Shown: positions 15,921 through 56,461 of the stretch, piece after piece | Layout: each line of letters starts with the position of its first letter | How positions within the stretch are numbered: the first letter of the stretch is position 1 | NCBI GenBank assembly: GCA_035578175.1 | Contig: JAQMRL010000005.1 | Coordinates: 59,687,722 to 59,751,721, forward strand | Length of the DNA stretch: 64,000 bases | Direction: 5' to 3' | Origin: Catonia carolina | Lineage: Eukaryota; Arthropoda; Insecta; Hemiptera; Achilidae | Program-made: the position numbers and the translations under genes | The notes under the pieces: model-generated | What the model saw: the letters and a program-made list of their open reading frames with translations, nothing else | What the model was told of the DNA's origin: nothing | The model's database searches: none

Positions 15921-16026
15921 GAAAAATTTTAAATTTTTATGATAGTACTTATATTCTAACCCTATTTAATACTATCAACAGGAAAAGGGGGAAATAAATA
16001 GGGAATTTTACAATGATTTAAAATTA

Positions 16027-16122
16027 GTTGATAAAAAATTTAAAAAAAGCAATAGGGAAAAAAGAAAAATCGTTGATAAAAAATTTAAAAAAAGCAATAG
16101 GGAAAAAAGAAAAATCGTTGAT
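16027..16122 (+). repeat. 45-bp tandem duplication
   Basis: A 45-bp unit starting GTTGATAAAAAATTT at 16027 is repeated exactly at 16072, with a partial third start at 16117. The two copies look identical, so the duplication is recent. Confidence 0.85.
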
Positions 16123-30900: not shown

Positions 30901-33900
30901 CTTCATCTTCATTATCATTTTTTTGGAATATACAACCTAGATATTTACATTTATTTACTATTTTTATTTTCTGATCTTCAAATAAGTATTTCCAATTTTC
31001 TTTCTTAATATAAATTTATACAAGAAATATTATTAAATTTATTATTTTTTTTAATAATTATACTTACAGGCTGAATTTTAAAGTATGTTTCATGCTTCTC
31101 TCGTTCTGGTGTTAAACCTTCAACTGCATCTAAGAGTTCCTTATCAGCTTGATAAAAATGTGGGAACGACAAATAAACTGGAGCATCTGAAATAAAAAAA
31201 GGTTTAGTTGTAATAAAAGGTTCAGGATTTCTTCCTGTTTACATAGCTCCTTGCTTCTTTCACTATAACTGAGGCACTGATTTAATTTGTAGGGCTACTA
31301 ATACTAACATCTATACACAATTTAACGTTCTGAATGCAGTACAGCTCTTATGAAAACCCGATATGTTATCAGGCGTATGGAAAACATCTGGCACAGTCAA
31401 TACAATAACTCTTCTCCACCAACAACATCAGAAGGTCACGGGGAAAAATATTTAGTTTTTCTTTCCACGCTCTAAGAAGCTCATTTTTAATCAAATTACT
31501 TTTTTTTAAAAATTACTTTCGCTTCCTAATGAATTGTATCTTATTATGATATACCTAATTGTTATTATTATACTCTGATATTTAGATAAGATATGCTCGT
31601 ACAAAGTTGGAAGTTTAAATCTTGTCACAGTTTTTGCGTTTCACATCATAAAACTTTTTTCTTTCAATGACAACCACTGAGCTAGAAATATACGTATTTA
31701 TTTCTTATAAAACATGTATGTTTTATTATTTTGGTATAAAATATATAATTTTATCTGTAATTTAATTTCTGATGAGTCATCTATTGGACAGCAACAGAAA
31801 TAATAGATGAGTTTGAAAAAATCACTGATTCGAAAGCAGGTCAAAGATAGATAAATTGGCTGGTTTGTATTTCGAGAATCTCTGAATCATTTTGACACCT
31901 GTAAAGTTATACCAAACATAATCTATTTTTAACTCCGATGGAAAAAGAGGGATGTTCAAACAAGAAATAATTGTTTTTTGTAATTGTCTACTTACCAAGA
32001 TTTAAACAATATAACTATTCTTTAATTTAAAATAATTAAAAAAGACGTCTAACTTGATAAACAATTCCATTACTATAATAATTGTCGGTATCTGATCTTT
32101 AAAACGATACAAATATTAAGTATGTTTTCTTACTAGGATATTCAAAAGGAGTTTGTAAATGAGAACGTGTTGTGGTGCGGAGTCGATATTTTTATTTAGT
32201 GTAGTAGCGCTCAACTCCCGTCTAAAGTACATTGCTGATGGACTTTCCATACTGCTTTCTGAACGTGAAATTAACAATAGTTAATGCCTTAATTCAGATA
32301 TTAGTGTAGTTAAAAAATCATAGAGTAATAATATACTACGCAGGGCCTATGTGTGTTTAAGTAGGCTGTAATAATAATATTATTATTACATAGAAGTGAG
32401 ATGGTTAGCTCCTACCATCCACTTGATCGAATAAAATAGTAAAATAACTTTGTTAATCCTTAATTAAGTCATTAATTCTTTTAATTCATTCAATCTAAAT
32501 GGGCCAGTGAAATTGCCACCATGATCTCCTGAACTCGAGGCATCAGACTTTTCCCTGTGAGGTTATTTTGATGTCAATTGTTTATTCAAGTCATTCATTG
32601 GTATAACTGAATTCTAGGTAAAATCTTTTCCCAGTTGTAACTTGCTACCTACGCCGCTTTGTGTGTATGTTTATCTTCTTCTTCTTCCTTCAGGGCATAG
32701 GCGAAACGCCTGTTCCGATCTCAAAGGGTTTATTTGTTAAATGTTGTTACATGACCATCGCTTCCTTGGTCTTCCAACATCTCTTCGACCAACTGGCTTA
32801 TATTGCCAAACTTTTTTGGGAATTCTTTCATCATTCATCCTTTCCAGATGTTCCATCCACCGTTGTCTATTTTCAAAGATCTTGTCTTCTAGTTTAAATA
32901 CTGCCAGATCCTTGCGAACATCTTCGTTGTACAACCTGTCCAGCAATGTACAACCTTTAACGGACCTGAGGAATCTCATTTCTGAAGCTTATATTTTGCT
33001 AAGGTGCCTCTTATTCGTTGTCCATGTCTCAGAGCCATATAACAAAGATGGTACAGCCATTACCCTATAAAATTTCAATTGGATATCTTTCCTTGTTTTT
33101 TTGTTTAAGGTGCGTCGGATGGTACCACATAAAGACTGAAACTTGTTCAACTTATTATTAATGTCTAAATCCTCTTCATATGTTATATCGCAACCGAGAT
33201 ACTTGAAATGAGAAACCTGTTCGATATTTGTGTTGTATACCATTATTCTTGTGCGAACAGGATATTTGCCTAAGAAAGCCATGGTCTTTGTCTTTTGTAC
33301 AGATAGTTTCATATTATAATCTGAACAGATTTGTTATAGTTGGAAAACCGATCTCTGAAGTTCATCCTCACTTTCCTGTATAATCACTTGGTCATCAGCG
33401 AACAACATTGTATTTAAGGAAAACTTATCCCCTATTTTAAATCCAGGGCTAATCTTAAATTTCCATTCCCTAATCATGTCATCTATATATATATTAAAAA
33501 GTGTTTGGGATACACAACATCCTTGACGTACACCTTGATTAATATATATCTCTTCTGACAGTTCCTCACCTACTTTTAGTATTATCCTTGTATTGCAATA
33601 CAAACTCCTAATGACATCTATTAGGTGTTTAGGATATCCCCTTTTAGCTAGAATACCCCATAGGAGAGCTCTCTTAACCCTGTCAAAAGCCTTTTCATAG
33701 TCTATGAAGGCTAGGTGCGTCTCTAAATTAAATTCCCTTCTTCTTTCAATCAGTATTTTCAAGGAAAATACGTTGTCTGTACATGACCTTCCACCTCGAA
33801 ATCCCGCCTGTTCGTCAAGCAATAACACATCCGAGATAGGACGAAGCCTTCCGTTGATAATCTTCCCATATAGCTTATAACATGTGTTCAACAAGCTTAT

Positions 33901-36900
33901 CCCGCGATAGTTAGTCGTTTTAGTTCTATCTCCTTTCTTAAAAAGAGAGATAACCTCCGCTATCCTCCATTCGTCTGGTATTATGCATTGTTTCCAGCAT
34001 ATATTCATGAAATGTAATAATCTGAACTTGAAAAGCAAACCCGAATATTTAAAAAGTTCAGAATTAAGCCCATCTAATCCAGTCGCTTTCCGGTTCTCCA
34101 ATTCCGAAACAGCTCTGTCCAACTCCTCTATAGTAATCTCGTCCACATTCGTCTCTTCCCGCACTCCTCTAACAATTTCTTGGGTAGCATTCGGATCATA
34201 CCATAGCCCCCTATAATGTTCAACCCACTGATCTTTAGGAACGAAGTTCAAATGGACAGTCTCTCTTTCTTCTTGATTTAGATGTTTCATCATTTTGTAT
34301 GCGATGTGTATGTTTATGTGAACAGTTTTTCTTAATTATGTCTATACAATCATCTCTCGCGAGATTGCTGTTCAATTTTGAATTACTCTGATTTAATAGC
34401 CTATTCTGTAAATAAGTTCAAAGGCTACGTTTAAAAATGAATAAAAAGTACTTACCAAACTGGCACGGACTAATATTTTGAAGTCCCCTTGGTGGACATT
34501 CACCTCTGCCAGGACAATAACACTTATTATCAGTTTTCTTTTCACCATTTTCAAAAATATCATCATCTGGCGAGTAATAACCTGCTCTGATTCCTTCTTT
34601 CTCAATATTGTATCGATACCTTAAAGGCCAAATACGACAAAGATCTTTGTCGTACACATGTACTATATCAGAATGTGTCAAATCTCTTGGTGGAAATAAT
34701 GAACCTAAAAAATTAAAAATTGTTCCGTTAATTTATAATTTATAACACAGGTTTGTATTTGTAAAATTGTCTAAGTCTTTTTAGTGATTTCAAGAGGTTC
34801 TTTGGTGATTAAAATGGAAAAATATTTAAAAACTCAATCACATAAGGTTTTTTCACAATTTGTGGAAATTTGTCTTATTTATATGTTGGTTAGTCATCTA
34901 CAAGTATAAAAGTGGTACAATAAAATGTATAAAATTTATAAAGTATAACGAGTCGGATTTTATGGATTGTGTGTAATTCTAAGAACACTTCTATTAGTAT
35001 GTCTAATTCGATCAAAAAAATTACGCTTCACAAAAAATCATCATCTAGGATTTAAGGTAGCAGCATGATACTGACACTTCATAGATGTAAAGGATAAATT
35101 TTGTGTAACTTGCTATTTTACTAAGATTATAATGTATAATTTTAGGTAGTATAATGCAAGATGTTGATATTCTTAATAAAAATATACTGGAACAAAAATG
35201 GGGATAGATTACTCCATTTTAGTTCTAAGATTGTAAATTTAGGCTTTCCCCTTCAATTTAGTAGAACAGATGGTCAGCCTATCCAAAGCCACACCATGGA
35301 GGTTGCACCTTGAGATGGAAAATGGACCTTACCAACCATCAGCTGGCTGTTACCAGTTCTGATTGGTCTTAACTCTTTTCAGCGCAGGAGAACGAGTCCC
35401 AAGATGAGTAGATTAATTAAAACTAAATATAAAATTTTTATGATTTCAGTGTTCTCTCACATACTATAATGTACATAAAGAAGAAACAAGGAAAAAAATT
35501 GATTCGTTGTTTATTTTTTAAATTACCTTCAGGCCTCCGGGCCAGTCAGTCAGCTGGTAGAATTATTTGTTTATAATTCTATTATTTATTATATATTATT
35601 TTTATTCTATTATTTGTTAAGTAACACCGGTTGGGCAAGCAACTTTGTGTGGTGATCAGCTGACAGCCATCCATGAACAAACTCTACTGCGGGTCCCTGT
35701 TCAAACTCATGTCTAATCCGCTTAAAATAAATACAGCGAAAAGCAGCGATCAAACTGGGTAGGTGTCAATAATGTACAGTCCCAATCACAAATAAAAGCT
35801 AAAAAAAAAATTACCTTCAGATGCTTTGATAGAATTACATGGTTGTTCATTCCAATATGGTAAATGATCTAGTCCATTAAGTTTGTTGAGTAGTCCAAAG
35901 TTTTCCATACCAGCATGACCAGTGTACATTGTATGTACTTCTTCAAGAGTACCATTTCTCTTTAAAAAGAAAAACAAATTTTACGTTAATAAAAATAAAA
36001 TGAATTCTATTAAAAATATTGGATCTTTTCCGTTTAGTCACAAGAAATGTACTGCATTTAGCACTTGTTAAGCGGCTTGCGTCACCCTCAATAAACTCAC
36101 CTAATTTTAATCATATATTATGAAAGACGTATATAGTGACGGCTTGCGTCATTCTCAATAAACATAACCTAATTTTAATCGTATAATGCGGACCGTACAC
36201 GATCATTAATAATGTCATTCCCTTATCATAATGACATTATTACTGACCGTCTACGGTTGACAAAGCTGGAATGATCCTCAGTAATGATGCGAATCCGGAT
36301 TTTCTGATTTCGTTGCTTCATTACTGCGGCAGAGTGGGGATAATGTCAGTAATAATGACCGTGTACGGAGCATGCATCATTCCTTCATCATTATTTAGTT
36401 AAGTTTGTAGCGTGCTGCAGTAAACATGAATGATGAAACTGAAGTATCGTTTTAAAGTTAGTTTTAAAAACTATTTCTCCAATAATTTATGTACTATATT
36501 AATTGTAAGTAGGTATGTACAGATTTACAACTGAGAAATTTGTATTTACCAGATAAAAAACAAAAAAGTTGAAACATTTACATAAACGAAAAAAGTACAT
36601 TAATCATAACGCGTAGTCTGTCAGACGACGAACACCAATTTCACAACCAATGGCACAAGTTACCACTTCGCAGTCAAGGTCAGCACTAAGAATTAGGGTA
36701 GATAGGAAGGTAGAGGGAGAACGGTCTCAAACACCACACTACAAAAAGGTTAAAAACGATAATTTAAAAGTGTGTAGTCTGGTTGACTACGCGTTATGAT
36801 TCTAGGGCTAAATAATCATTAAAATAAAATTTTAAAGTTAATATGTTATCAATAATCAGTAAAATATTTAAATGTAGGCCAAAATGTGGAAAAAACATGA

Positions 36901-39900
36901 ACATTGGCCTCTAGTTTGGTTTTACATCTACGAATTTGAAATGGCTTTCGGCAGCAGCATGTGCATAGTTATACTATTTTAACTTGAAGGCTGAATGTGT
37001 AAGCTCTGTACTGTGCTACACAAGTACCACCATTACTTTGCATACTGGAATAGAATCTCATCCAGTTATAAATGCCCGGCATCTGAAGACCAGATCATCC
37101 TACAAAATTTATAGAATTTTGTAACCTAAAAAAATTCTATATGAATAAATAGTTGAGTTATTTAACATTAAATACCAAATTTATTATGTCACATATTTAG
37201 GTATGGGATATTTACAGCCCATCTCAGATCCTTTTGAATAACTGCCATTGTCTCTTATAACTTTTTGTTCTAAACTGTTTTATATTCAAAATAAATAATT
37301 TAAGCAAAATTGTACTTTTTAAGTAAAGAGTATGGAACTTATAAGTTGTTTAATAAATTAGCAAGATCTTACCAAAATTTGTCCTTGAAGAGCATGAAAA
37401 AATACAATCACAATTTTTATACATCATATTTTTCACCATACTGTGTGTTTTTGACTGTACTATGCTTTTGTTAAAGCTTTACCCCTGTCCTTAAGGATTG
37501 AATGGAATAGATGGGTGGCTTAAGAGAGATGTGGTGAGCCAGGTAAAAAATAATGCTTGTACTATTGTAGCTGCTGATATCAATCCAGGCGGTATAGTGC
37601 AACTATTAATGAGAATGGCTTAAACATATTGGATCGATGTTATTTATTGACTAGTATGCTACAGCTGACCAGAGATAAGCTTTGGCAAAAGAGTTATTAT
37701 CTTCTCTTCTTCTTTAAGTACCATGCCCGACTATCGGACGTTGGCAATCATATTGGCTACCATCACTTTATTCACTGCAACTCGGAATAGCTCAGTGGAT
37801 GTTTTGTGGTACCACTCACGGAGGTTTCGTAGCCAAGACGTCCTTCTTCGTCCCGGTCCTCTCCCTCCGGCAATTTTACCCTGTATCACAAGATGCAGAA
37901 GGTTATATTTTCCTGGGTGTCTCATCACGTGGCCAAAATATTCGAGCTTGCGTGTTTTTATTGTTCTGATTATTTCTGTGCTCTTTTTCATTCTCTGTAG
38001 GACCTCTTCATTTCTTACTCGGTCCACTCAACTTATTCGGAGAATTCTTCTGTAGACCCACATTTCAAAAGCCTCCAGCCTCCTCATTAAAGTAGTCGTC
38101 AGCGTCCAGCTCTCCGCACCATATAACAAAGCGGAGAATATGTAACAGCGTGTTAATCTGATTTTTAGTTTTAAAGTGATTCCTCTGTCACATAGAATTC
38201 TCTTCAATTTAAAGAAGGCGGTCCTGGCTTTTTCAATACGGATCTTTATTTCCTTACTCATGTCCCATTTGTCGTTGACACTGGCGCCCAGATAAGTGAT
38301 GTTTTCAACTCTTTTTAGCCTTATACCGTATGCGTTGATTTGTACAGGTTGTATTGTTCCCTTGCTAACTACCATAAGTTTGGTTTTTGAAGCGTTGAGC
38401 TTTAGACCATATTTGTCACAAGCTGAGGTTACCCTGTTTACGAGTGTTTGTAATTCCTCTTGGCTTGCCGCAATTAAGACCGTGTCATCCGCGTATCTTA
38501 AATTATTGATGTATCTTCCATTTACTCGAATGCCGCAGTCCACTTCATCCAAGGCCTCCTTGAATATGTAATCAGAGTAGATATTAAAAATTAAAGGAGA
38601 CAGGATGCATCCTTGTCACACTCCCCGTTGTATCTCCACTTCGTCTGATATATTTGGCCAACTCTGATGTTCGCGCGCTGGTGCCAGTAAAGATTCGCGA
38701 TAATTCTCAGGTCCTTGTCGTCAATTCCCACCTGCTGTAGTATTGTGATCATTTCTTCGTGTCTTACCCTATCGAAGGCCTTCTCGAAATCTATAAAACA
38801 CAAAAAGACTGGCTGTTGCACATCTCTGCATCTCTGTACCAAGACCTGAAGACTAAATAATGCTTCTCTGGTTCCGAGGCTGTTACGAAATCCAAATTGT
38901 GTTTCACTTAGCTGAAACACAAGTTATTATCTAGATAACCTATAACTATAGTTTATATTCTTAAAATATTACTATAAAGTAGTGGGAAGTTTCATTAAAA
39001 TCATTAGAGACATTTTTTCAGAGTACTATCTGATTTTAAACTGTTGAATCAAGTAATATTCTCCTTATTCATGTAAATGATCATCAATGCAAAAAAAGTA
39101 AAAATATTGAAATTACTATATTCGTAATTAAAATAATAAATTACTTACCCCCAATAGAAGACCCATTTTTTCAGGTGGTCTTTTACCTCGTGGATAATAT
39201 TTACTAGCGAGCTTAGTTAATGTATCATCATATCCAAATACTAATTCTTCCGCTGTAATTTTTTTGAACGGCTTCATTTTCACGAATCCACCCAGAAATA
39301 TTGACATTCCATATTTCATAAAATGACCTAAATGTTTTGTTGCACTCGTTAACGTCTGAAACAAACAATTTATTATAAAAAAATCGAATGTATTTATATT
39401 TAAACATTTGTGCCAAAGGGATAAAAGAAGGATGATTGCTCGAAAACAATAAATATTATTTTTATTATTTTTTACCAACATTTACAGTAAACCCTCCCTT
39501 ATTTGGGCCTCTGATATCTAAAACCTCTAATATATAGTGAAGTTTTTCAAAAAAATTGTAATTTTAAAAATTCACATTTATGAGCTGACGGAAAAGAATG
39601 TTTTTTTTTGTCGAGCAAAAGTATGAGTATGAGCGTATGGCCTTCAGTAATGCTGCAGAGGGGGTTAAGTCATTGCCTGCAGTCGAAATTCTGTTCATGA
39701 CTTTTTCCTGACTACAGCAGTTCAGTACTTAGTTTTTTTATTAATTTTCACCCAAAAAACAAGTTAAATCATATTTTAAATGAATTTATCTCAAAAATTA
39801 ACCAAAAAAAAGTATTCTTCTATAAAATTAACAATGGAGTCCAAATATGATCGCTCTAAATCTGCATGAAGGTATCCATTTCTTATACATTAAGACAGTG

Positions 39901-41810: not shown

Positions 41811-42752
41811 ATGGAAAAAGAAACAGTCAGACTGCAGGGTCGTCTGTCTACCCCATTTAAGGTTACAAAAGGACTTCGTCAGGGATGCTGTCTCTCTCCT
41901 ACTTTGTTTAAGATTTATATGAATGAAGTTTTGAAAGAGTGGAAGGCAAAATGTGCTAATATGGGTATCGACATCGATGGAGAATATTTGTATACCCTTC
42001 TATTTGCAGATGATCAAGTAGTAATAGCGAATGACGAGTTCGATATTGAATATATGATGAGGAAACTGACAGAGGTTCTTGAGAAATGGGGCTTAAAAGT
42101 TAACTATTCAAAGACGAAGTATTTACCGATTGGAGTTGTTGGACGAGATCTGCATATAGGGGGGCATAGGATAGAGGTATGTGAAGAATATAAGTATCTG
42201 GGTGTGGTGTTGAGTAAAGAAGGAAACAGCCAACGGGAGATAGTAAATAGAGTGACTCAGGGAAAAGTAGTTACAGGAATGCTGAATTCAGTTTTGTGGT
42301 CAAAGGATATCCGGACAGAAACAAAGTGTAGAATTGGAAGAGCGATACAACAAAGCGTTCTTACATATGGTGCGGAAACGTGGGAGCTAACTGAGAGAAG
42401 TAGACGAAGGATTGCGGCTGCACAGATGGACTTCTGGAGACGAAGTTGTCGTGTTTCGAGGATGGACCATATACGAAATGAAACAATCTGGCAGAGAGTA
42501 GGAAAACCAAGTAGGGTATTGGATGAAATTGGGAAAAAGGTATTGTTTTGGTATGGGCACTTGAGAAGGATGAGTGAGGGCAGATGGCCCAATAGGATAT
42601 GGAATTGGACCCCAACAGAGAGAAGGAAAAGAGGCCGTCCAACGAGACGGTGGATGGAGGAGGTGATGGAAGCAATGAGCAAGAGAGATCTGCAGGAGGG
42701 TGATTGGCTGGATCGGGAGGCTTGGCGATTGAAATGCGAAAGACGGCTTTAA
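41811..42752 (+). CDS. LINE reverse transcriptase C-terminal half, intact frame
   Basis: 313 codons. The ATG and the first ~6 residues are host flanking sequence read by chance; the element itself enters at 41828 in RT motif about 4. It contains GLRQGCCLSPTLFKIYMNEV, the catalytic LLFADDQVVI, then LKVNYSKTKYL, YKYLGVVLSKEG, VLTYGAETWELTE, MDFWRRSCRVSRMDHIRN, WYGHLRRMSEGRWPNRIW and KRGRPTRRWMEEV. Without the RT N-terminus and endonuclease it cannot act alone. The lack of stops over 940 bp, with the long poly(A), shows that the insertion is recent. Confidence 0.88.
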   Translation: MEKETVRLQGRLSTPFKVTKGLRQGCCLSPTLFKIYMNEVLKEWKAKCANMGIDIDGEYLYTLLFADDQVVIANDEFDIEYMMRKLTEVLEKWGLKVNYSKTKYLPIGVVGRDLHIGGHRIEVCEEYKYLGVVLSKEGNSQREIVNRVTQGKVVTGMLNSVLWSKDIRTETKCRIGRAIQQSVLTYGAETWELTERSRRRIAAAQMDFWRRSCRVSRMDHIRNETIWQRVGKPSRVLDEIGKKVLFWYGHLRRMSEGRWPNRIWNWTPTERRKRGRPTRRWMEEVMEAMSKRDLQEGDWLDREAWRLKCERRL

Positions 42753-47450: not shown

Positions 47451-48189
47451 CAGTTTTTAATATTTTTTTATCAATATACTACATAGAAATTGATCATTTT
47501 TAAATAGATCTATTATTGAAAAATGAAAAAAGGGTCTACAATTCTCAAAGAGACTCATTTAGGGTCCAAGATTGTTGGATATTTTTAAGAATCTCTGCTC
47601 TAAAACATAGAGTTCACAGGCAAATAAAGTTGGGTGCATTTCATCAAACAATCTGTGTTTCTTTATCGCATTGACAAAACTACACAAGGTTAAAATTGAC
47701 AGACTGTACAAAACAATCTATAGACAGCTTTGTCAGTAGTTTCCATCTTAATATTAATAAAGTATATAATTATTTATTCATGTAAGTGTTAATTTAATTA
47801 ACAATACTACTGATATATTTATTTATTTGTATTTGTTTTATTTACATTATGTAATTTATATGAATACACTCTGTAGCTGTCTTTCTAAGAATGACTGTTA
47901 CAAGAAATCTTAACCATTTAGCATAACAATATTGTCAATATTTCCTTGTCTATAATAATCATAGGTGTCATAAATCATTTCTATGAAAGCATTAGTCATA
48001 TTAACCATGCACAGCAACAAAAATAAATTTATTACAAACACAATTTTCTTACACTGGAAAATTAAATTAAATTGTTAATTAAATCTTTTTATTTTTTGTA
48101 AATTGTAAATTAAATTTGTAGTTGTGAATTAAATTAATTAATTGTAAATTAAATTTGTAGTTGTAAATTAAATAAATTAATTGTAAATT

Positions 48190-48870
48190 AAATTTTTTTG
48201 TCATCAGTCTCTTGACTGGTTTGATGTAGTTTTCCAAGCTGTACTACCATGTGCAAGTTGTTTTACATCTACATACTTGCAACACTCTGTATCTTTTGTA
48301 ATTTGTTTTAAATATTCTAACTTTCACCTCCCCCTACAATTCACTCCCACAATATTACCCTTCATTATTGATAGTGCAGTACCTGGATGTTCTAAGATAT
48401 TCCGTATTAGTCTATCTCTTCTGGTAAATGTTTTCATGATACTTCTTCTTTCATCCACTTGTCTAAGAACCTCTAAATTACTTATTTTGTCCACCCACCT
48501 AATCTTTAACATTTTCCTATAATGCCACATTTCAAAAGCCTCTATCCTCTTCCTTTTTACAGCCCCTGCACCCATGTTTCATTTCCGTGTTATGCTACAC
48601 TTCAAACATAGTGTTTTAAAAATTTTTTCCCAATCTATAACCAATGTTTGTAGTCAGTAAGCTGTTTTCATTTCAAAGGCCCTCTTAGCTCCAGTAATCC
48701 TACTTTTGATATCACTTGTGCTTCTACCATTCTTTGTTATTTTACTCTCTAGATAGCAGAATTCCCCAACTTCCTGTTTGTTTTTGTTGCCTACTTTTAA
48801 ATTTCCCATCTTTTTTAAACCACTCATGCTACTGCATAAAACTTTCGTTTTGTTCTTATTAATTTTCATG
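48190..48870 (-). pseudogene. LINE C-terminal fragment
   Basis: The - strand gives MKINKNKTKVLCSS, FCYLESKITKNGRSTSDIKS, then (other frame) KRIEAFEMWHYRKMLKIRWV and SNLEVLRQVDERRSI. The blocks are in the same order as in the other LINEs. It ends at 48190-48230 with the 3' UTR motif CAGTCTCTTGACTGGTTTGA common in arthropod LINEs. It is broken by frameshifts. Confidence 0.75.
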
Positions 48871-52647: not shown

Positions 52648-52705
52648 CCACCACTTAACTAAATAATACTAAAATACCTATATAAAGAAACAAACACTTT
52701 ATAGA

Positions 52706-52891
52706 CTATTTATCTAGTTTTACAACACCCATCTTTTTAACAAAATAATAATGTTTAATTTTGGACAAACTTTTGGTCAATAAGTCAGCAGGCATTTCAG
52801 AACTTCTCAAATATTCTAATTTAACATATCTTTTGCCTACTGCTTCCCTTATAAAATGAAATTTTACATCAATGTGTTTAGTACGACGGTG
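52706..52891 (-). CDS. Copia polyprotein C-terminal end (after the insertion)
   Basis: HRRTKHIDVKFHFIREAVGK is the end of copia RNase H. KRYVKLEYLRSSEMPADLLT follows, and a stop at 52706. It continues the frame that was cut at 54668 if the transposon and one ATAT copy are ignored. Confidence 0.88.
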   Translation of the reverse strand, partial: HRRTKHIDVKFHFIREAVGKRYVKLEYLRSSEMPADLLTKSLSKIKHYYFVKKMGVVKLDK

Positions 52892-52895
52892 ATAT

Positions 52896-54664
52896 GAGTC
52901 GACCAGATGCAAAAGAGAGTAAGTCCAAAATTTTCGAAATTCATATTTTCGCGCCAGTTTGTTCAGGATACGGTGCTACACACGACGTGCTATTTTATTT
53001 GTGTCAAAAAGGACTAGAATACGCTCTTTTTTCATGTTAAAAATTGCATTTTGTTGCAAAACAGAGTATGTCCCACCCCCATTTCATTGCAGACAGGAGT
53101 AAGTCCAATGATATTTTTACAGTTTCAAAAAGGAGCATGTCCCATGATAATTTATTTTGGTATCACTAATACAGTAGCAAAAAGGAGTATGTCCAATATT
53201 ATTTAATATTTGATTTTTAATTTATTTAGAAACTCATTTCACAGATATAATTTTGAAAATCAGTTTATATTTATTTACTTAATAATAATTTTTTTAATTA
53301 TTTATTTTTAGCCGGTGTTTGGTTGGCTATTCTGGTTTCTATCATCGTTCGTACAGCTGATTATCTAGCTAAAGCCACTTGCCATTTAGCCAGTGTGTGT
53401 AAACGTTTGTGAATTATTGGAGTTCTTGTATTTTAAAAGATTTTAATAATAATATATTGCAACATATTACATTAATATGTTCCTTCAACATGTAATCATT
53501 ATTACATTAATGAACCACAAAACAATGAGAATACGTTCATTTACACCTGGTTAGAAAGTGAACACAAAAAGGGGTCAAACGAAATAGTTTCTTGTGTTTA
53601 TAACCAACTTAGTAATACTGACTTGTCAACTGTCCACACAATCCGTCTGTTTTCAGACGGATGTGGTGGGCAAAACAAAAACCAAACCATGATTGGAATG
53701 ATAAGTACGTTTCTATATGATGCTCCAACTAATTTGAAATCTATTCACTATTTTTATCCAGTGGTTGGTCATTCTTTTATACCACCAGACAGGATATTCG
53801 GGCGAATTGAAAAGCAGGTAAAGAAGTTGAATGTGCTAGTAAATGTAGAAGATTACTTGAAAATTTTTAAGAAACACGGAACAGTTATCCGTGTTTCAGC
53901 AGACTGTAAGGTATATGACTGGAAGAAGTCTATTCAAAATGTTTATAAAGCGCCAGCACGTTGGCATTTCAAATTTGCCCCTGTCAAAAGAATTATTTTC
54001 AGCCGAAGCAAGACGGGGACAGTTTTAATTAAAGGTGAGCCACATTATGAACGAGATGTAGGACAAGCAAGATCAGTGCTGAAACCTGGCAAGACGCTCG
54101 ACTTTGTACCAGATGAAATTAACCCAGGTATTTCAATTAAAGATGCTAAAAAGGCAGATGTTATTAAATTACTAACAAAGCATTATGGAGGAAATTGGAT
54201 GGCATTACCTGAACTTCAATATTTTAAGAAGGTTGTGGAAATAGAAGCTACGGGAGATGAAGGCGACATCGAGTCAGATATTGGAGATTTAAATGTTGAA
54301 GAAGAGTTTCAATTGTAAATAAAAACATTGTAGACATTTTTTGAAATGTATTTTAATAAAATAATTCAATAATAAAAGTGTTTTTCATAAACTACCAAGT
54401 TCTACAATTTATACTATTGCAGAATGGAGTAAGTCCCACAATTTAGTGGCCAAACGGGGTATGTCCAATTTATTTTCTAATAAAACTTGAAAAATAAACA
54501 CTTAATATTTTAGGGATATTAAGATATAGTTTTAGTTGTCTATGACTATAATGGAGAATGTTTTAATACATGGTTTTATGTGATGGAACAAGGTACAGCA
54601 GTTTTTGGCTTCTACTGAAAAATTTACTCCAATGGACATACTCCCTTTTGCATCTGGTCGACTC
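52896..54664 (+). mobile_element. Nested DNA transposon with SDGCGGQNKN-type (DUF7869-like) ORF
   Basis: The left end GAGTCGACCAGATGCAAAAG and the right end read on the - strand share the first 20 bases exactly; the pairing runs for ~32 bp with two mismatches. ATAT is duplicated (52892-52895 and 54665-54668). Motifs of the form GGAGTAWGTCC recur at about 52914, 53062, 53095, 53131, 53182, 54425 and 54456, all in the same direction. The last TIR carries the inverse copy. It interrupts the RNase H codons of the Copia element. Confidence 0.9.
53476..54318 (+). CDS. DUF7869-like protein, probable transposase fragment
   Basis: The frame is open from 53476 (after TAA at 53473) to the stop at 54316-54318, giving ~280 residues. 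No ATG is placed to give a complete protein, so the N-terminal part is missing or encoded by a deleted 5' region. The open part includes NTFIYTWLESEHKKGSNEIV, SCVYNQL, FSDGCGGQNKNQTMIGM, HSFIPPDRIFGRIEKQV, then a basic middle and an acidic tail (DEGDIESDIGDLNVEEE). The S-D-x-C-G-G-Q-N-K-N and G-H-(S/T)-x-x-x-x-D...E motifs are those of the DUF7869 family, which has an RNase H-like look. I infer a role as nuclease or transposase, because the gene lies alone between TIRs. An internal Met occurs only after the SDGCGG motif. Confidence 0.75.
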   Translation, partial: YVPSTCNHYYINEPQNNENTFIYTWLESEHKKGSNEIVSCVYNQLSNTDLSTVHTIRLFSDGCGGQNKNQTMIGMISTFLYDAPTNLKSIHYFYPVVGHSFIPPDRIFGRIEKQVKKLNVLVNVEDYLKIFKKHGTVIRVSADCKVYDWKKSIQNVYKAPARWHFKFAPVKRIIFSRSKTGTVLIKGEPHYERDVGQARSVLKPGKTLDFVPDEINPGISIKDAKKADVIKLLTKHYGGNWMALPELQYFKKVVEIEATGDEGDIESDIGDLNVEEEFQL

Positions 54665-54668
54665 ATAT

Positions 54669-56461
54669 ACAGAATTTTCAGTAAGTTTTTGAGCACTTTG
54701 ACTGTCAGTATAAATTGTTACAGGCACATTATTTTGTCTATTTGTTAGCTCGTGTAATAAATTTCTGAGATGAATAGCCTCCTTGGTAGCTTCACAGGCA
54801 GCCATATACTCAGCCTCGGTGCTTGATAAAGCCACCGTCTGTTGCTTCCTACTTTCATGTGACACTATACAATCTGAATATATAAAACAATATCCTGTGT
54901 AGGATTTACGATCTAAATTATCAGATGCCCAATCAGCATCAGCATAACCCATCAAATCTGAATTATTTTTAACATATTTTAGCCCAAATGACTTTGTACT
55001 ATACAAATATTTCAATACTCTCTTAGCATGTTTATAATGAGTCTCTGTATTACGATTATTGAATTGACTGAGATAACTTATACAATATGAAATGTCTGGT
55101 CTAGTCAAAATTGACAGATACATTAAACTCCCTATTAATTGTTGATAAGGAAATTTAGAATTCGAATTTTCTCCCTTCTGTAATTTAAGATTAACTTCCA
55201 TAGGGGTTTCTACATTTTTACATTTCTCCAGACCAAATTTAGATACTAATTTATCAATAAAGCTCTCTTGACTTATAAAAATACAATCCTTCTGTATCTT
55301 AATATCCATACCTAGACACTGTCTTAATTGACCTAGGTCTTTTAATTTAAATCTCTTACTTAACTCACTTTTTAAGTATTCTACTTCTTTATTACAATTA
55401 GAAAACAAGAAAAAGTCGTCAACAAACAATGCAACAAAAGTTTTACAATTTTCAGTTGTTTTTGTATACAAACAATGCTCATACAAGGACTTTTTATAGC
55501 CTAACTGTTGTAAACAAACATCAACTTCCTTATTCCAAGCTCTAGCCGACTGCTTCAACCCATATATGGCCCTTTTCAATTTTAAAATTTTATTTTGATT
55601 AGAATCACATTTAAAATTCTGTGGTAACTCCATATAAACTGTTTCATCTAAGCGGCCATTCAAGAAAGCTGTAGTTACATCTAAATGTGTGATGTTAAGA
55701 TCTAGTTTTACACTTAAGGCAAATAACAGTTTTAATGTGGAATACTTTAGCACTGGTGAGAAGGTCTCTTTGTAGTCTATGCCTTCCCTCTGTGTATAAC
55801 CTTTCGCCACTAATCTTGCTCTGTAACGCACTGTATTGTCAATGTTTAACTTCTTTTTATACACCCACCGACACTGCACTACCTTAGCATCACTTGGTTT
55901 GTTCACAATCTCCCAAGCTTCATTTTCATGAAAGGATTTAAGCTCTTCTTCCATCGCGTTGCACCACTGCTCTCGTTCAGGTCCATTCATTACCTCCTCA
56001 TATGTAAGACTGTCTTCATCCAAATCTTCATTATTTTTACACATGTTACTATATCCATACCGATCTGGAACTCTTCTTTGTCTCTTTTCTGTGCCAGCAA
56101 CATCTGTCTTAACAAGTGTCTCATTTTCAGTTGCATCTTGCATAGACCTACTGTCACTGAACTCCTCTGAACTTGATGTACTTGCAGTCTCGTCCGGGAA
56201 ATATGTTTCATCATTTATTGTGTTTGAGCTATCTCTTTCAGAAGTCAAGGTTGTGTCGAAGGGGTCCACGGTTTGACTTTCTACACTTTCTTCCTGCTGA
56301 ACAACTGGCACAGTATCTTCCACAGAACTTCCATCAGTCGATTCTTGCTTATGAATATCCACTCCGTCTAACATCAAAAAGTTTTCAGCAGCAAACGCCC
56401 ACTCGTCGTAGTTTTCTCTACCTTTTAGCTTCGGCACGTTAACAATGTAGCTACCGGCCAT
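54669..56461 (-). CDS. Copia polyprotein: gag N-terminus fused to RT and RNase H, interrupted
   Basis: The ATG at 56461 starts MAGSYIVNVPKLKGRENYDE and WAFAAENFLML, the N-terminus of copia gag. About 35 residues on, it passes in frame into the acidic linker before RT. The rest of gag, the zinc knuckle, protease and integrase are absent. RT follows: WCNAMEEELKSFHENEAWEI, RWVYKKK, THLDVTTAFLNG and the catalytic FVDDFF. RNase H follows: YADADWASD, STEAEYMA, IYTDSQSAQKL. At 54668 the frame runs into the nested transposon and ends at 54563 after nonsense residues. The remaining RNase H C-terminus lies at 52891-52706. Lacking integrase and protease, it could only move in trans. Confidence 0.9.

Follow-up and report, generated by a model that had tools for sequence, protein, structure and literature searches.

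What kind of element is inserted at positions 52896-54664 of the stretch analysed here, and which protein moves it? This stretch (the window) comprises 64,000 nucleotides of contig JAQMRL010000005.1 of the hemipteran Catonia carolina. The insertion is a DNA transposon of 1769 bp that is bounded by terminal inverted repeats (TIRs), lies within a Copia element and contains part of a gene for a protein of the Pfam family PF25273 (DUF7869). With a probability of about 0.82, it is a recently inserted non-autonomous copy whose full-length relatives encode a DUF7869 transposase, most likely belonging to the Sola superfamily, group Sola2.

The insertion and its full-length relatives

The limits of the insertion can be read from Copia copies that lack it. 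The right Copia flank (296 bp) gave 82 first-look candidates in the genome, and the 40 matches that were scored are all 100% identical to it. Six of these 40 were fetched for the unoccupied-site test. In all six the insert is absent and the site reads ...GGTG-ATAT-ACAG..., with ATAT present once; two of them show a one-base difference in the 56 bases left of the site. Because the unoccupied copies hold ATAT only once, the target duplication measures exactly 4 bp. An earlier note on this DNA, made from the sequence alone, had described a sharply bounded insertion of 1,769 bp in a Copia element, with TIRs of about 32 bp (30 of 32 positions matching), an ATAT duplication and a known empty site. 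The same boundaries, TIRs and flanks were found, and the inverted repeat amounts to 36 nt at 94% when the flanking ATAT is counted in. The window copy is young and has been recently inserted.

The note had also proposed to look for further copies with these ends. A search of the host assembly (1.47 Gb) with the element gave at least 55 matches, the weakest of which, near 67% identity, probably belong to other families. One copy is identical to the window element over all 1769 bp. The absence of such copies, which would have refuted the note's reading, is thus not observed. Two long copies of 2891 bp (L046) and 2895 bp (L047), 99.4% alike, each contain an open frame of 578 codons; reading by eye, applied to L047, showed there an initial exon of some 35 codons followed by a GT-AG intron. 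Nine derivatives of 600-610 bp retain the first 467 and the last 135 bp, and other derivatives measure 774 bp (L052), 1761 bp (L003) and, in four cases, 1871-2162 bp.

The window copy is open from 53476 to 54318, and this open reading frame matches PF25273 with 40 bits (cut-off 26; E 4.1e-10), so that it covers the C-terminal portion of such a protein. The two motifs reported for it, S-D-G-C-G-G-Q-N-K-N and H-S-F-x-P-x-D-R-x-F-G-x-I-E, are both present. The copy is considered a non-autonomous deletion derivative because its ATG is followed by 28 unmatched bp and then by the second half of the transposase, where it resembles the long copies again from about 53508; it is also non-autonomous because the first of three conserved aspartates has been lost. 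The expectation that an N-terminal part was missing and that longer relatives existed was thus borne out by the two 2.9-kb copies. The description as a compact, independent element was not, the insertion being instead an internal-deletion derivative of the 2.9-kb element. The repeat TATTACATTAAT stands on both sides of the junction (53465-53476 and 53500-53511), and together with the 28-bp insert it might be what an interrupted gap repair would leave. The point at which the 774-bp copy leaves the element almost coincides with this junction.

Target sites, end repeats and related families

In a Pfam search of the host genome for DUF7869, 1141 first-look candidates were obtained and all 150 that were scored lay over the cut-off; the Pfam search of 14 control genomes found no DUF7869. 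Five further families (A, B, D, E and F) were selected because each had several equally scored rows. Their copies, too, are bounded by GA...TC TIRs and flanked by 4-bp ANNT duplications, and the ends GA...TC are common to all six families. Element length ranges from 2599 to 3036 bp in families B, D, E and F, the latter value being measured in L077 of family B (10 copies). Among Pfam families, DUF7869 alone exceeded its cut-off in the long frames of the six families (Glyco_hydro_45, TAF1D and Flavi_DEAD remained below theirs). No known integrase or transposase family did so, and no match to the retroviral-type integrases or Ginger was thus obtained. The genome suggests several recent amplifications of DUF7869 families. 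Several of these families appear as runs of near-identical open frames, for instance L055-L071 and L075-L084.

Examination of the flanks of other copies, as the earlier note had proposed, revealed an identical 4-bp flank in 14 of the 19 window-family copies that possess both ends, the window copy included. When flanks were paired by shuffling, 4-bp matches averaged 2.6 and never exceeded 8. Identity at 3 and 5 bp was not found in this family, and at 2 bp it was no more frequent than in shuffles. All 10 copies of family B are flanked by 4-bp duplications (shuffles average 3.0), as are the 8 copies of family A, out of 17, whose left end was fetched (shuffles average 2.5). By eye, and in two copies each, the duplications are AAAT and AATT in family D, ACTT and ATTT in family E, and AATT and ACAT in family F. 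Over the six families a 4-bp duplication is present in 38 of 43 copies; 32 of these 38 target words are AWWT and all 38 are ANNT, beginning with A and ending with T.

The motif GGAGTAWGTCC, allowing one mismatch, occurs in the element at seven sites on the plus strand and one on the minus strand, in agreement with the at least seven same-direction motifs previously reported near the ends. At this threshold the 64 kb contain no site outside the element; six sites there have two mismatches. The two internal sites on the right side have disappeared from the 600-610-bp derivatives, and movement therefore seems possible without them. Families A, B and F carry the repeat core TAAGTGCC at element base 25, where the window family has TAAGTCC; families D and E have end repeats of their own (AGAACGAC and CATTCTCC, respectively). 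In genome contigs, the paired GGAGTAWGTCC pattern was also seen in 15 stretches of bacterial metagenome-assembled genome (MAG) records, perhaps by chance or through contamination; in L044 (contig JAKAVM010000029.1, filed under an actinomycete MAG), four such matches lie within about 0.6 kb.

The DUF7869 domain and its putative active site

A total of 931 proteins matched one DUF7869 alignment at E <= 0.001. The motif searched for is present in 283 of 306 proteins (23 do not have it); among these 283, the third aspartate is kept in 281 and the glutamate at +7 in 190. All three aspartates are invariant in alignments A2 (61 rows), A3 (9) and A4 (55). The second and third have 43 residues between them and both fall within the PF25273 matches (residues 294 to 520 of the frames), and in L047 the first one lies upstream of the match. 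The putative active site, judged from this conservation, is D-D-D. The earlier note had suggested that D/H/D/E residues formed an RNase H-type active site. The predicted fold is indeed of RNase H type, but this set of residues was rejected, given that just 190 of the 283 proteins retain the glutamate and that the first aspartate belongs to the part lost from the window copy.

In structure comparison, the predicted catalytic domain resembles those of retroviral integrase and Mos1. Its acidic residues are located on strands and a helix that we take to correspond to those bearing the acidic residues of these two enzymes. A sequence search of solved structures gave no match at E <= 1, and a Foldseek search of the viral structure library returned no row at E <= 0.001. 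A literature search for GQNKN gave only five papers, unrelated by title. Phage and plasmid records gave no match. Viral contigs gave none with protein P0003, and the pattern matches obtained there with alignments A2 (11 stretches) and A3 (17) were not confirmed. One DUF7869 protein, P0064, is filed under a Lactovum miscens MAG and perhaps represents insect contamination.

Features of the inserted element and its target site (positions in the window)
Feature	Position	Strand	Remark
Left target site duplication, ATAT	52892..52895		single in 6/6 unoccupied Copia copies fetched
Inserted element, 1769 bp	52896..54664	+	internal-deletion (non-autonomous) derivative
Left TIR, 32 bp	52896..52927	+	
Subterminal motif AGAGTAAGTCC	52916..52926	+	inside left TIR; core TAAGT at element base 25
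Subterminal motif	53063..53073	+	one mismatch
Subterminal motif	53096..53106	+	
Subterminal motif	53132..53142	+	one mismatch
Subterminal motif	53184..53194	+	
ATG opening the first exon in long copy L047	53477..53479	+	remainder of exon deleted in window copy
Deletion junction, 28 bp	53480..53507	+	unmatched in long copies
DUF7869 transposase frame, C-terminal part	53509..54318	+	including stop
Second conserved Asp codon	53656..53658	+	SDGCGGQNKN
Third conserved Asp codon	53788..53790	+	HSFIPPDRIFG
Glu codon in FGRIE	53809..53811	+	conservation not universal
Subterminal motif, right side	54426..54436	+	gone in 600-610-bp derivatives
Subterminal motif, right side	54456..54466	+	one mismatch; gone in 600-610-bp derivatives
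Right TIR	54633..54664	-	30/32 matching left TIR
Subterminal motif	54634..54644	-	inside right TIR
Right target site duplication, ATAT	54665..54668		single in 6/6 unoccupied Copia copies fetched

The host Copia family (52700-56461) shows signs of a very recent burst, its 40 scored places being identical over 296 bp. Read by eye, its frame 54563-56461 (minus strand) begins gag-like and continues directly with reverse transcriptase, and for this reason the Copia copy looks internally deleted; the end of the frame is severed by the transposon. Elsewhere in the window, fragments resembling reverse transcriptases of retrotransposons without long terminal repeats were recognized by eye at 33334-34293 (minus), 38028-38552 (minus) and 41811-42752 (plus), and short tandem arrays lie at 16020-16122 (45-bp units) and 48101-48195 (39-bp units).

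Relation to Sola2 and to other transposases

According to the parts of PMC10741241 that deal with them, Sola elements possess a DDD transposase, 4-bp duplications, TIRs of 11-1124 bp and a size mostly of 2-9 kb. The passages on amoebozoan Sola2 in PMC3627910 report duplications that are AT-rich and of the form AWWT, for example ATAT, AAAT and ATTT. The passages on Sola examined in PMC5753468, PMC5199201, PMC10294476, PMC11071193, PMC12220107, PMC11245825 and PMC7998251 contain no Sola transposase sequence or motif. The corresponding features of the DUF7869 elements are 4-bp duplications in 38 of 43 copies, AWWT in 32 of 38, three conserved aspartates of presumably catalytic function, 32-bp TIRs and long copies of 2891 and 2895 bp, the 1769-bp window copy being a derivative. 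Because target duplication, catalytic triad and anatomy agree with the published features, the DUF7869 elements are probably of the Sola2 type. The earlier note had considered a link between DUF7869, TIRs and a 4-bp ATAT duplication not to be standard. This claim is weakened, as Sola2 with DDD and AWWT had already been described in the passages cited (PMC3627910, PMC10741241); the name DUF7869 itself was not found in the open-access literature searched. The same note had let the novelty of the element fall with its placement in a known superfamily, and by that measure a placement in Sola2 would refute the novelty. The useful point is that DUF7869 would be part of a transposase.

Several observations weigh against this assignment. 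The Sola2 name is based on target site and triad, not on sequence comparison with a reference Sola2 transposase. Five of the 19 window-family copies (L021, L024, L025, L046 and L049) have no matching duplication, and a single copy, L050, which lies within an AT repeat, matches also at 6 and 8 bp. Of the 2000 shuffles in family A, at least one also reached 8 of 8, owing to the small number of recurring target words. The TAWGT(R)CC core is absent near the ends of families D and E, and matches to the loose repeat pattern also occur in the central parts of B, E and F. Foldseek, with whole-protein and domain models, returned no solved structure (PDB) at E <= 0.001; its best rows for the whole protein were an IstA transposase and Argonautes, and those for the domain were PIWI and nucleases of viral terminases. 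Besides, a shared fold is not proof of chemistry.

These points leave some room for a superfamily of its own, in which DDD and 4-bp AWWT duplications would have been reached independently of Sola2. The likeness to Sola2 is one of published description, the name DUF7869 was not found in the literature searched, and the sequence search of solved structures gave no match at E <= 1. However, the published accounts of Sola and Sola2 cited above are matched in target preference, in the length of the duplication, in TIRs, in size and in DDD, and such an origin is considered unlikely. Equally doubtful is the broader picture of a separate DDD superfamily behind an unknown-function label, which would have undergone recent bursts here and whose distant families would share a TAWGT(R)CC core at base 25.

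DUF7869 might instead be a passenger or captured gene in elements moved by some other transposase, as some transposons carry accessory genes (for instance Fanzor in Sola2, in the passages of PMC3627910) and the frame of the window copy is broken. Nevertheless, no Pfam family besides DUF7869 passes its cut-off in the long frames of the six families, no second stop-to-stop frame of at least 100 codons exists in the 2895-bp copy (L047), and the predicted fold is integrase-like with a conserved DDD, all of which makes this explanation very improbable. A Tc1/mariner-type element, whose TA duplication was misread owing to the ATAT flank, is next to inconceivable. The window flanks alone would fit either TA or ATAT and the predicted fold is near that of Mos1, but other copies duplicate AAAT, AATT, ATTT, AGAT and AACT, by which a TA duplication is ruled out, and identity exceeds that of shuffles at 4 bp and not at 2 bp. 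In addition, 43 residues separate the second and third aspartates, whereas the figure in mariner is about 34.

For the preferred Sola2-type reading, the following course of events may be proposed. Full-length relatives of 2.9 kb would encode, in two exons, a DUF7869 transposase of about 604 amino acids. Its N-terminal part would bind the TIRs and the subterminal GGAGTAWGTCC array, and its RNase H-fold domain, to judge from predicted fold and conserved residues, would cut both ends by means of the three aspartates. The ends would then be inserted into the target with a stagger of 4 bp, preferentially at A-W-W-T, which would yield the 4-bp duplication; both the length of the duplication and the preference are seen in the copies. 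The window copy still has both ends and the repeats, but everything in the first exon beyond the ATG is gone, together with the intron and roughly the N-terminal half of the protein including the first aspartate. Its 28 unmatched bp at the junction may stem from an interrupted gap repair. For mobility it would depend on transposase supplied by another copy, and the 600-610-bp derivatives must have relied on such a supply too.

DUF7869, a Pfam family named as of unknown function, would thereby become part of a transposase with a testable active site and a target rule. Insect genes annotated as 'uncharacterized, DUF7869' could then be treated as likely transposon genes, and the runs of near-identical copies make the host genome a good source of candidates for activity tests.

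Regarding known systems, the predicted DUF7869 domain shares the RNase H fold with Mos1 and retroviral integrase but differs from them in target duplication and in the spacing of acidic residues, and no sequence similarity to them was detected. The likeness to Sola2, by published descriptions, includes DDD, 4-bp AT-rich AWWT duplications, TIRs and a size of a few kb. While the amoebozoan Sola2 elements treated in the passages of PMC3627910 have TIRs of 12-21 bp and some of them carry Fanzor, in the window family the TIRs measure 32 bp and a single frame reaches 100 codons or more.
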